Shown here in pieces: positions 19,968 through 38,603 of a stretch of DNA of 38,603 nucleotides (its first letter is position 1; each line of letters begins with the position of its first letter). The DNA lies in assembly GCA_900016865.1 (NCBI GenBank), contig FIZI01000006.1, positions 620-39,222 of the forward strand, given 5' to 3'. Below the pieces are notes generated by a model, which had not been told where the DNA came from, did not search any database, and was given only the letters and a program-made list of their open reading frames with translations. Position numbers and translations under genes: made by a program. This DNA is from an uncultured Clostridia bacterium (lineage in GTDB: Bacteria; Bacillota; DTU014).

Positions 19968-20963
19968 GTGTTGAGAGCAATTGCAGGTATACTGGGAATT
20001 GGGATGTTTGTCCCTGAAAAGGTCCTGACCAACGACGATCTGGAAAAGATGGTCGATACGTCGGACGAGTGGATCAGAACGCGCACGGGGATCTCCGAAC
20101 GGCGTCTCGCAGACCCCCATCAAGCGACGTCTGACTTGTCGAGCAAGGCGGCTCTGATGGCGCTGGAGGACGCAGGTATCGCAGCGGATCAGGTGGATGC
20201 AATAATCGTTGCAACGATGACTCCAGATATGCCTTTTCCCGCTACCGCATGCCTGGTGCAGCACAAGATCGGAGCCCACAGGGCGGCTGCGTTCGACCTG
20301 TCAGCGGCTTGTGCAGGGTTTATATATGGCTTGTCCGTAGCGACCGCTTACATCGAATCGGGGATGTACTCGACCGTACTTGTCATCGGTGCTGAGGTCT
20401 TGTCCAGAGTTACGGACTGGACAGATCGCTCTACATGCGTCTTGTTCGGAGACGGAGCCGGCGCGGTTGTCGTGGGCAATATCAACCGGGATTCTGGCGT
20501 TCCGAGGATCATGAGCGTATCGATTGGTGCTGACGGCTCCAGCGCTCATCTGATTCATGTCCCAGCCGGCGGGTCACTCAGGCCTGCCAGCGAGGAGACT
20601 CTGCGCAACAGGCTTCATTACATCAGCATGAGTGGCAACCAAGTGTACAAATTTGCTGTGCGCATCATGGGCGATGCCGTCTTGGAAGCACTCTCGGGGA
20701 TGGGGCTTAACAAGGAGGACATAGACTGCTATATACCCCACCAGGCCAATGCCCGAATAATAGAGTCTGCTGCCAGACGATTGCAGCTGCCCCCGGAGAA
20801 GGTGTTCCTCAACATCAACAAGTATGGCAACACTGGCGCTGCTTCGGTGCCCATCGCGCTCTGCGAGGCGAAGGCCACCGGTTTTGTGAAGTCTGGAGAC
20901 CTAGTTGCCTTAGTCGGTTTTGGTGCCGGCTTGGCTTGGGGAGCGGCTATAGTCTCTTGGTAA
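19968..20963 (+). CDS. fabH: Beta-ketoacyl-ACP synthase III FabH
   Basis: 331 residues with the complete FabH catalytic set: C115 in LSAACAGFIYGL, H258 in YIPHQANARI and N288 in KYGNTGAAS. It condenses an acyl-CoA primer with malonyl-ACP to start fatty acid synthesis. The N-terminus GILGIGMFVPEKVLTNDDLEKMVDTSDEWI is typical. The start is GTG at 19968, four bases after the plsX stop, with GGGGGT upstream; a TTG at 19971 is the alternative. Primer choice (straight versus branched) cannot be decided from the sequence. Confidence 0.95.
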   Translation: MLRAIAGILGIGMFVPEKVLTNDDLEKMVDTSDEWIRTRTGISERRLADPHQATSDLSSKAALMALEDAGIAADQVDAIIVATMTPDMPFPATACLVQHKIGAHRAAAFDLSAACAGFIYGLSVATAYIESGMYSTVLVIGAEVLSRVTDWTDRSTCVLFGDGAGAVVVGNINRDSGVPRIMSVSIGADGSSAHLIHVPAGGSLRPASEETLRNRLHYISMSGNQVYKFAVRIMGDAVLEALSGMGLNKEDIDCYIPHQANARIIESAARRLQLPPEKVFLNINKYGNTGAASVPIALCEAKATGFVKSGDLVALVGFGAGLAWGAAIVSW

Positions 20964-21017
20964 CCCCGAGCAGCCAAGCTGGCCGGCGTCTTGCAGTTTG
21001 ACTGGGAGTGGTGCGCT

Positions 21018-21950
21018 ATTAAGAAGATCGCGTTTCTTTTCCCTGGACAGGGTTCTCAGCAGGTGGGTATGGGCCGTGCGCTTGCAAGCGAGTATCCTGA
21101 AATAGAGGAGACCTTGGACAAGGCTGGAGAGCTGATCGGCATCGACTTGAAACAGTTGTGTTTCTTTGGCCCTGATGCTGAGCTGACAAGGACGTCCAAT
21201 GCACAGCCGGCACTGCTTGCTGTCAGTGTCGCTACTATGAAGATCGTAGCCAAGCATATAACTCCTGCAGTTGTGCTTGGACATAGCCTTGGGGAATACA
21301 GTGCCTTGGTTGCGTGCGGGGCCATGCGTTTTGAGGATGCAGTGTTGCTAGTGCGCAAGAGAGGCGAACTGATGGAGAGTGCAGCCGACGGGTCTGGAGC
21401 CATGTGCGCGGTGATCGGGCTTGACTTGGCACAAGTAGAGCGCGTATGTCGCAGCGTTTCGGAGTATGGCACTGTTGTTCCTGCAAATATCAACTGCCCA
21501 GGGCAGATAGTGATATCCGGCCACCGAGAAGCGGTGCGTTTGGCAGCAGAAGAAGCATCACGCATAGGCGCAAGGCGCACGGTCATGCTCAACGTCAGCG
21601 GTGCCTTTCACAGTCCGCTGATGGAGACTCCGGCACGTCTCTTTGCGCCGCATCTCGATGCAGTGCCAATACGCGATGCACAGGTGCCCATCGTCAGCAA
21701 TGTGACAGGGACTGCTGTTTGGTCGGGATCAGAGATCAAAGAGCTTCTCTTGAGACAGCTTACTTCTCCGGTGCGGTTTGAGGATTGCGTGAGGGCGCTG
21801 GTCCAGTTGGGGGTAGATGGTTGCGTTGAGCTCGGCCCTCAGAAAGTCGTATCCGGCTTGGTCAGGCGCACTGCAAAGGGTATGCCTGTGTTTAACGTCG
21901 AAACAGGCCAGGACGTCCTCGAGCTTCTCCGGTTTGTCAAGGAGGAATAG
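21018..21950 (+). CDS. fabD: Malonyl-CoA:ACP transacylase FabD, probable ATT start
   Basis: 310 residues from the proposed start. It transfers malonyl from CoA to AcpP. The catalytic serine is S90 in VLGHSLGEYSALVACG, the histidine is in SGAFHSPLM, and the N-terminal FLFPGQGSQQVGMG is canonical. The start is odd: alignment places initiation at ATT (21018), giving the usual MKKIAFLFPGQGSQ, and GGGAG (21004-21008) stands 9 nt before it. No ATG or GTG exists in frame nearby. The only other candidate is TTG at 20991, which has no ribosome-binding site and adds nine non-conserved residues (QFDWEWCA-like). It lies within the fapR operon. Confidence 0.93.
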   Translation: MKKIAFLFPGQGSQQVGMGRALASEYPEIEETLDKAGELIGIDLKQLCFFGPDAELTRTSNAQPALLAVSVATMKIVAKHITPAVVLGHSLGEYSALVACGAMRFEDAVLLVRKRGELMESAADGSGAMCAVIGLDLAQVERVCRSVSEYGTVVPANINCPGQIVISGHREAVRLAAEEASRIGARRTVMLNVSGAFHSPLMETPARLFAPHLDAVPIRDAQVPIVSNVTGTAVWSGSEIKELLLRQLTSPVRFEDCVRALVQLGVDGCVELGPQKVVSGLVRRTAKGMPVFNVETGQDVLELLRFVKEE

Positions 21951-21952
21951 CA

Positions 21953-22693
21953 ATGAGGTTGGCAAACAAGGTCGCTGTAGTCACAGGCGGTTCTCGAGGG
22001 ATCGGGTACGCGATTGCCCGGAAGTTCGCGTCTGAAGGCGCCTCAGTTGTGGTAGCAGGCCGCAACTACGAAAGCGTGCGTGCGGCTGCCGGTGAGTTGG
22101 AGAAACTCGGAGCGGCTTCGATGGCAGTGCAATGCGACGTTGCCTTAAGAGACGAGGCTGAACAGCTAGTGTCGCTCACAATCGAGAGATTTGGCAGGAT
22201 AGACATACTTGTGAATAACGCAGGCATCACTCGAGATAGGCTGATATTGCGAATGAGCGAGAGTGACTGGGATTCAGTTATGGCAGTGAATCTCAAGGGA
22301 GTGTTCAACTGCACAAAGGCTGTCGCAAAGGCGATGTTGCGGCAGCGCTATGGACGGATCATTAACATAACGTCAGTGGTAGGCCTATTGGGCAATATTG
22401 GGCAGGCGAACTACGCGGCTTCGAAGGCGGGAGTGATCGGCTTTACAAAGGCGGTTGCCAGAGAGCTGGCCAGCAGAGGTGTTACGGTCAATTCGATTGC
22501 GCCTGGATTTATCGAGACCAAAATGACCGAGGATCTTCCGGAGTCCGCCAAGGAAGCATTTATGAGCCGGATTCCTCTTGGAAGGGCCGGTACTCCTGAA
22601 GATGTAGCAAATGCCGCGTTGTTCCTGGCCTCCGACGAGGCTGCCTATATTACCGGGCAAGTCATTTGCGTCGACGGTGGAATGGCCATGTGA
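21953..22693 (+). CDS. fabG: 3-oxoacyl-ACP reductase FabG
   Basis: A 246-residue short-chain dehydrogenase/reductase that reduces 3-oxoacyl-ACP with NADPH. The Rossmann motif is TGGSRGIGYAIA (11-22), NNAG is at 88-91, and the catalytic residues are S141, Y154 and K158 in YAASKAG. The C-terminus APGFIETKMTEDLP and YITGQVICVDGGMAM are typical. Strong AAGGAGG precedes the ATG, which lies 2 nt after the fabD stop. Confidence 0.96.
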   Translation: MRLANKVAVVTGGSRGIGYAIARKFASEGASVVVAGRNYESVRAAAGELEKLGAASMAVQCDVALRDEAEQLVSLTIERFGRIDILVNNAGITRDRLILRMSESDWDSVMAVNLKGVFNCTKAVAKAMLRQRYGRIINITSVVGLLGNIGQANYAASKAGVIGFTKAVARELASRGVTVNSIAPGFIETKMTEDLPESAKEAFMSRIPLGRAGTPEDVANAALFLASDEAAYITGQVICVDGGMAM

Positions 22694-35430: not shown

Positions 35431-35507
35431 GAATCGATGCAATAGAGTTGTCTCGTGAGAAATGGGGCTCCAAGTGGGCCTCTTTTTCTGATTCGGAGGT
35501 TGATACG

Positions 35508-36062
35508 GTGTCGTGGAAATCTGAGGTCTGGGAGTTTGTACAGGCAGTTGCGATAGCAGCGGTCCTGTCCATTTTCATCATAACATTCGTTATGCAGTCT
35601 TTTTTGGTTGAAGGCAGTTCTATGTACCCGACACTAAGCGACAGAGACAGGCTTTTTGTCAACAAGCTTGTCTACAGGTTTAGGGAGCCCCAAAGAGGAG
35701 AGATCATTGTGTTCAGGTATCCCGCTGATCCTCGCAGGAACTTCATAAAGAGGGTCATAGGGATACCGGGAGACCGTGTAGCCGTCTCCGGCGGGATCGT
35801 CTATGTGAATGGTGTCCCGCTTGAGGAGCCCTATATCAACGAACCGACCTATGGCAGATACCCTGAGACGGTTGTACCGGAGAATACTGTGTTCGTCTTG
35901 GGAGACAACCGTAACCACTCTCAGGACAGCAGAGAACCCTCTGTCGGGTTTGTGCCTTACAAGAACATCGTTGGAGAGGCATTTGTTCGCTATTGGCCCT
36001 TGACGAAGGTCTCGATAGTGGACAGCGTGGGTTTTGTAGATCCCTTTGCAGACGATCAGTAG
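35508..36062 (+). CDS. lepB: Signal peptidase I
   Basis: 184 residues, the Gram-positive single-membrane-span type. It has one N-terminal membrane anchor (VQAVAIAAVLSIFIITFVM), the catalytic S38 in EGSSMYPTL, K81 in NFIKRVIGIPGD, and the C-terminal box VFVLGDNRNHSQDSR. It removes signal peptides from exported proteins such as the secreted and LysM proteins in this window. I chose GTG 35508, which has GGAGG about 9 nt upstream and gives the usual 184-residue length. The open frame from TTG 35448 has no ribosome-binding site. Confidence 0.94.
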   Translation: MSWKSEVWEFVQAVAIAAVLSIFIITFVMQSFLVEGSSMYPTLSDRDRLFVNKLVYRFREPQRGEIIVFRYPADPRRNFIKRVIGIPGDRVAVSGGIVYVNGVPLEEPYINEPTYGRYPETVVPENTVFVLGDNRNHSQDSREPSVGFVPYKNIVGEAFVRYWPLTKVSIVDSVGFVDPFADDQ

Positions 36063-37722: not shown

Positions 37723-38603
37723 TCATATCTGCCGAAATTGAAGGGCTTCGGCAATATGCCGCACTTCAATCTTGGACTTGCCGTCCATGTCAGCTATTGT
37801 ACGGGCGACCTTGAGACAGCGCGTCATTCCTCTGCCGGTCAGTTGAAGCCTCCTGCCGCCCTCGATCAGCAAACGTTCGGCCTCAGGCGTCATGATGCAG
37901 TAGCGGTGGATTTCTGCAGGGTTCATTTGTGAGTTGACGACGGTCGTGCTGCCACTCTTTTTGAACCGCTCGAGCTGGATGTCTCGCGCACGGCACACTC
38001 GCGACCTCACAGTCGCAGAATCCTCGGCAGCCCCTTCGACAGCTACGCGAGCGAGGCGTTCTGACGGCTCGGGAAGCACGTTGATCGTCATATCCATGCG
38101 ATCCAGAAAAGGGCCGGATAGGACTGACCTGTATGAGCGGATCTCTCGTTCAGTGCAGCGGCACTCCCTGTCCGCTGAACCAAAGAAGCCACACGCGCAT
38201 GGGTTCATCGACGCGATTAGGAATACCCGACAGGGGTATACAACGGTCTGGAGGTGCCTGTTGAGCACCACTCTGCCCGAGTCAAGAGGCTCTCTGAGGG
38301 CATCTGTGACCTTCTTGTTGAACTCGCCCAGCTCGTCCAGGTAGAGGACACCATTGTGGGCCAGACTGAGCTCGCCAGGACGCAGCGGCCTCCCGCCTCC
38401 GATTAGACCTGCGAGAGTTGTACTGTGGTGCGGAGCGCGAAAGGGTCTGTGTTCCAACAGAGGCCGCGAACGTTCGAGAATCCCGGCTATGCTGTGAATT
38501 TTGGTAGTCTCGATGGCTTCTCTTAGCGTGAGGGGAGGCAGGATCCCTGGAACGCAGGATGCTAGCATGCTCTTGCCAGAACCGGGCGGCCCGATCATGA
38601 GAA
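37723..38603 (-). CDS. comM: ComM/YifB-family Mg-chelatase-like AAA+ ATPase, C-terminal part (5' end outside window)
   Basis: The frame is open to the right edge, so the N-terminal Lon-like domain is missing from view. The visible part starts at LMIGPPGSGKSMLA (Walker A) and continues with FRAPHHSTTLAGLIGGG, Walker B GVLYLDELGEF, the sensor-like IASMNPCACGFFG with a zinc-type Cys cluster (CRC), and a C-terminal lid with TGRGMTRCLKVARTIADMDG. In Haemophilus and Vibrio, ComM is a helicase for branch migration during natural transformation. The role in Bacillota is not established. Its position after rnhB is common in Bacillota. Confidence 0.94.
   Translation of the reverse strand, partial: LMIGPPGSGKSMLASCVPGILPPLTLREAIETTKIHSIAGILERSRPLLEHRPFRAPHHSTTLAGLIGGGRPLRPGELSLAHNGVLYLDELGEFNKKVTDALREPLDSGRVVLNRHLQTVVYPCRVFLIASMNPCACGFFGSADRECRCTEREIRSYRSVLSGPFLDRMDMTINVLPEPSERLARVAVEGAAEDSATVRSRVCRARDIQLERFKKSGSTTVVNSQMNPAEIHRYCIMTPEAERLLIEGGRRLQLTGRGMTRCLKVARTIADMDGKSKIEVRHIAEALQFRQI

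Follow-up and report, generated by a model that had tools for sequence, protein, structure and literature searches.

We find support for ATT at position 21018 as the only well-placed start codon of fabD in the sequence as given, and we put at about 55% the probability that the gene begins there by low-efficiency AUU initiation, perhaps in an IF3-sensitive manner. The window, by which we mean the whole 38,603-nt stretch that was analysed, comes from an uncultured Clostridia bacterium represented by a single draft genome sequence of one strain. That the ATT is truly in the organism's DNA, that it is used as a start and that it is under any IF3 control, we infer from this sequence.

The gene is intact and present in one copy in the genome. 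Its product matches TIGR00128 at 331.8 bits in a profile search (cut-off 260.9) over positions 2–288 of 290, and contains both FPGQGSQ and GHSLGEY, which we take to be the motifs of FabD. The frame is open from 20964, immediately after the fabH stop codon (TAA, 20961–20963), to TAG at 21948–21950. The end of fabH lies 54 nt from the ATT, and the fabG ATG is found 2 nt 3′ of the fabD stop. Codons for K-K-I-A-F-L-F-P-G-Q-G-S-Q follow the ATT, and direct reading confirmed the GGGAG reported in an earlier note on this DNA, with a spacer of 9 nt (21009–21017). The note's further statement, that neither ATG nor GTG occurs in frame, holds upstream of the ATT, where a CTG (20979) is in frame as well as the TTG of Table 1, but not downstream, where GTG 21063 and ATG 21069 share the fabD frame, though 3′ of the FPGQGSQ motif. 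The RNA fold around the start (66 nt) was no better than those of shuffled sequences (z 0.46), which gives no ground for proposing a hairpin switch there.

Table 1. Features of the fabD region and of the end of the window.
Feature	Position	Strand	Remarks
fabH, upstream gene	19968..20963	+	NCBIfam NF006829/TIGR00747, near full length
TTG, rival start	20991..20993	+	Sole canonical in-frame codon upstream of ATT; −3.1 kcal/mol
GGGAG, predicted fabD ribosome-binding site	21004..21008	+	Pairing −8.4 kcal/mol with assumed anti-SD; block common to relative
Mini-frame GTG GTG CGC TAT TAA	21008..21022	+	Out of fabD frame; read directly
ATT, proposed fabD start	21018..21020	+	8 codons before P of FPGQG; 9 nt after GGGAG
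fabD coding sequence	21018..21950	+	310 codons plus stop; malonyl-CoA:ACP transacylase; TIGR00128 match
fabG, downstream gene	21953..22693	+	TIGR01830, full length
ComM-like gene (named by eye)	37723..38598	−	Cut by N

After exclusion of own copies and two duplicates, 107 relative fabD loci were considered, and five without a motif match were dropped; the remaining 102 are not independent, many being from Bacillaceae. In 91 of the 102, the best-scoring canonical start precedes the P of FPGQG by exactly 8 codons, the distance of the window's ATT, and the placement of the start by family position thus stands. Some canonical start is found 7–10 codons before this residue in 100 of the loci and 5–16 codons before it in all 102. 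The comparison with related genomes that the note had proposed therefore matches the position of the ATT, while the ATT codon itself is not conserved.

Comparison within the family is with one other genome (G001), whose fabD, the nearest relative, is 67% identical to that of the window. Alignment of the two leaders reveals a common block, TGAC.GGGAGTG.TGCG, that includes the GGGAG; a TTG stands 8 nt after GGGAG in G001 in place of the ATT, and between block and coding region, near the start, the leaders differ in length by 5 nt. An in-frame TGA lies directly upstream of the block in G001, which makes a long FabD extension impossible there. These leaders bear on translation from the TTG at 20991, which would lengthen FabD by nine residues, M-Q-F-D-W-E-W-C-A, ahead of I-K-K-I-A-F. 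Initiation at TTG is permitted, and of 778 sample genes 128 have TTG as their best-scoring canonical start; being the sole ATG, GTG or TTG in frame upstream, the one at 20991 would probably be chosen by automatic annotation. We nevertheless share the earlier note's view that it is an improbable start; our reasons are that the extra residues would be read from the conserved ribosome-binding block, that the codon lacks a ribosome-binding site of its own, and that G001 has an in-frame stop in this part of its leader. It also lies 17 codons before the P, outside the 7–10 range of nearly all the relatives.

Ribosomes might instead load at either out-of-frame GTG (21008 or 21011), stop at TAA 21020–21022 and re-initiate on the ATT, which that stop codon overlaps by one base. 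The mini-frame and its overlap are there in the sequence, and GTG 21011 aligns with an ATG in the G001 leader. That ATG, however, is in frame with fabD, so the mini-frame is not conserved, and GGGAG is only 2 nt from GTG 21011, too close for a binding site. We regard this route as very improbable, and its final step would be AUU initiation anyway.

The GGGAG is an ordinary site. All pairing energies given here use an assumed anti-SD, since no 16S was found in the assembly and its 3′ end had to be assumed. With an altered initiator tRNA or 16S considered as a cause, a search of the draft yielded no 16S rRNA match, and an initiator-tRNA anticodon-arm pattern allowing up to two mismatches had matches in G001, G005 and G049 and none in the window's genome or G013; both RNAs are probably missing from the draft, in which there were 41 tRNA matches. 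ARAGORN reported only one tRNA-Met among the sources scanned. On this scale fabD scores −8.4 kcal/mol, near the weak quartile of the 226 genes on the contig (median −9.8, quartiles −11.0 and −8.3), and is thus moderate. The AUH starts of infC, rny, an S55-like gene and relA score −14.1, −13.7, −11.4 and −6.9 kcal/mol, and the conserved AUH sites, ranging from −11.0 to −16.2, are all stronger than fabD. At fabD an AUH codon occupies the start position that homology supports, no canonical codon is better placed, and a site lies at working distance; the strong or extended SD of the AUH examples that have been studied is not seen in its leader. The moderate site is the main evidence against efficient use of AUU at fabD.

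The lineage does appear, from these start assignments, to use AUH codons outside fabD, and not at infC alone. The infC gene of the window's genome reads AGGAGGTGTCTGGCC ATC, with the same layout in G001, and all 15 genomes examined, L138 among them, have AUH as the best infC start. A gene that we named rny (RNase Y) by eye from its sequence begins, in both family members, with an ATC that follows a strong site (in the window's genome at L177:18196–19728, contig C13); AUH is its only well-placed start in six of eight genomes examined (relatives L269–L275), the other two having GTG and TTG. The rny start thus looks like a conserved, infC-like case, and may deserve more attention than that of fabD. 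The S55/SpoIVB-like peptidase gene, also named by eye, has ATC in the window's genome (L122:6902–8893) and an ATA in the corresponding position in G001 (L139), following AAGGGGTGA and with no well-placed canonical start. The view in the earlier note that such codons are known mainly from infC is therefore too narrow for this genome, where rny and the S55-like gene carry them behind far stronger sites than that of fabD.

Another gene, named relA by eye, reads GAGGGTGATTCAC ATA (L120, about 16394, contig C6), while G001 (L144) has GAGGGTGATGGCC ATG. The ATA and the G001 ATG occupy equivalent positions behind GAGGGTGAT. Both genomes also carry a GTG a few codons further upstream, but no site lies at a usable distance from it, which makes ATA the probable, though not sure, start. 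It is a second non-conserved AUH start on the same contig as fabD. As far as sequence comparison goes, we would accordingly distinguish two classes: starts that are conserved and have strong sites, and the two at fabD and relA, which are not conserved and have ordinary ones. Ordinary sites are what one would expect where a canonical codon has been lost recently, be it in reality or through error.

Genome-wide screens were also made. Genes without a well-supported canonical start but with AUH or CTG and a site numbered 9 of 778 in the window's genome, 1 of 133 in G001 and 0 of 326 in G051, counts that we do not use for enrichment since the gene calls were mechanical, several of the nine look doubtful by eye and the composition of G051 differs. 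One of the nine is cut by an N, and an ordinary start may exist for others; the screen passed over fabD, probably because it gave a score to an in-frame codon further downstream. Counting all 61 codons on the contig gave no clear AUH excess over other codons, which indicates that chance SD-like matches are common. Among 111 orthologue pairs with a well-supported canonical start in G001, 90 keep a canonical codon in the window's genome and four have AUH or CTG at the aligned place. Only relA was accepted from these four, two others having a canonical codon right beside and one having no site. In the reverse comparison 90 of 110 were canonical, with two CTG and no AUH.

Some genes came up along the way. 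A germination-permease-like gene (L158:14097–15200, contig C11; CTG or ATC) and a glycosyltransferase-like gene (L176:5885–6664, contig C13; CTG), both named by eye, have no clear canonical start. The mechanical open reading frame of lepB (by eye) in the window, 35448–36062, begins with TTG 35448; the likely start is GTG 35510 after GGAGGT, and lepB was dropped as an AUH case. dprA and one further gene likewise resolved to ordinary starts.

The main rival reading is that the ATT was introduced by an error in sequencing or assembly, or represents a strain variant in the minority, and that the real fabD has a conventional start codon here or immediately beside it. A single-base difference would suffice, G001 has TTG at the corresponding place, and the strength of the fabD site is that of an ordinary canonical start, unlike the conserved AUH starts. 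The difference in leader length from G001 makes a small indel error conceivable too, and the contig carries a lone ambiguous base (N) just past the window end, so some base positions are uncertain. In our judgement a real AUU and an error start from similar odds, since natural switches to AUU are rare as well: passages of PMC5622118 on ancestral reconstructions give one switch to AUU per 61,358 AUG and one per 5,080 GUG starts.

What moves us from even odds is the rest of the genome. At most one split gene was found in 170 orthologue pairs with G001 (52,657 aligned residues), which implies that base errors are not frequent, although the bound is loose and still compatible with one error at one codon. 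Even that single stop falls within a variable linker and could be a natural feature. In the window, all nine proteins tested against their families matched over the full length or nearly so. By rough estimate, two start-codon errors, at fabD and relA, in 226 genes would need a rate hard to square with the split-gene count. With relA as a second case and a background tolerant of AUH, we lean to a real AUU start and find the error explanation doubtful.

Some details of the assembly were recorded in passing. The split gene (contig C1, about 99495–102819, minus strand) corresponds to an endonuclease/helicase fusion (by eye) in the relative, divided here by one stop. An initial split-gene screen had returned 33 rows, mostly antisense shadows, and was repeated. 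The lone N is the first base of L112 and cuts the ComM-like gene; 22 further N occur near the contig end.

If the AUU start is real, the GGGAG would position the 30S subunit on AUU 21018, and initiator tRNA would read the codon with a third-position mismatch and insert formyl-methionine, giving a product that begins M-K-K-I-A-F like other FabD proteins. IF3 acts against such codons, according to PMC13009471 and PMC10158994, the former also describing autocontrol of infC by IF3. Discrimination by IF3 against the AUU would then let FabD be made at a reduced and possibly IF3-responsive rate. An essential fatty-acid gene would thus depend on a start codon that ranks among the least efficient, membrane synthesis would be linked to initiation-factor levels, and gene callers limited to ATG, GTG and TTG would assign fabD a false N-terminus. 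The earlier note thought an ATT on an essential lipid gene unusual; it is less exotic than proposed, given the AUH starts elsewhere in this genome and in Bacillota, and the occurrence of such starts in a Bacillota lineage beyond infC, rny above all, is the wider point. An IF3 start-codon regulon made up of a few growth-control genes, namely infC, rny, relA, fabD and the S55-like peptidase gene, and extending to lipid synthesis, is speculative and in our opinion unlikely; were it true, translation, mRNA decay, the stringent response and fatty-acid synthesis would all be set together by how much IF3 the cell contains.

A literature search, with most subscription journals outside its scope, turned up no report of fabD starting at AUU or of rny starting at AUH. 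PMC3890641, considered as a report of a fabD ATT start, has unrelated content in the part available. infC resembles fabD in having an AUH start, ATC in the window's genome, with the site 9 nt upstream; it differs in that AUH is conserved in every genome examined and follows a strong AGGAGGTG-type site, whereas at fabD the codon is not conserved and the site is moderate. In Escherichia coli, pcnB starts with AUU. Like fabD it is a non-infC gene with this codon, but it is a different gene in another phylum.

AUH starts outside infC are already known in Bacillota, and fabD adds to them. In Staphylococcus aureus, ribosome profiling with retapamulin detected AUH starts at cvfC1 (AUU) and ccpN (AUA), and extended SDs are described at AUH starts (PMC13009471, in part). 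These are, like fabD, non-infC cases in Bacillota; they differ in being conserved among relatives and in having extended SD motifs, neither of which applies to fabD. For Listeria, the sections available of PMC13068326 describe six conserved genes, infC and rnhC among them, in which a non-canonical start is fixed, and reporters of rsbW in which expression fell in the order ATG, ATA, ATT, the ATT reporter producing no fluorescence and a faint band on western blot. The rsbW mutants from ATG to ATT or ATA arose under selection and in a regulator gene, unlike fabD, and ATT was the lowest in expression; they share with fabD a non-conserved AUH start, and from it some protein was still made.
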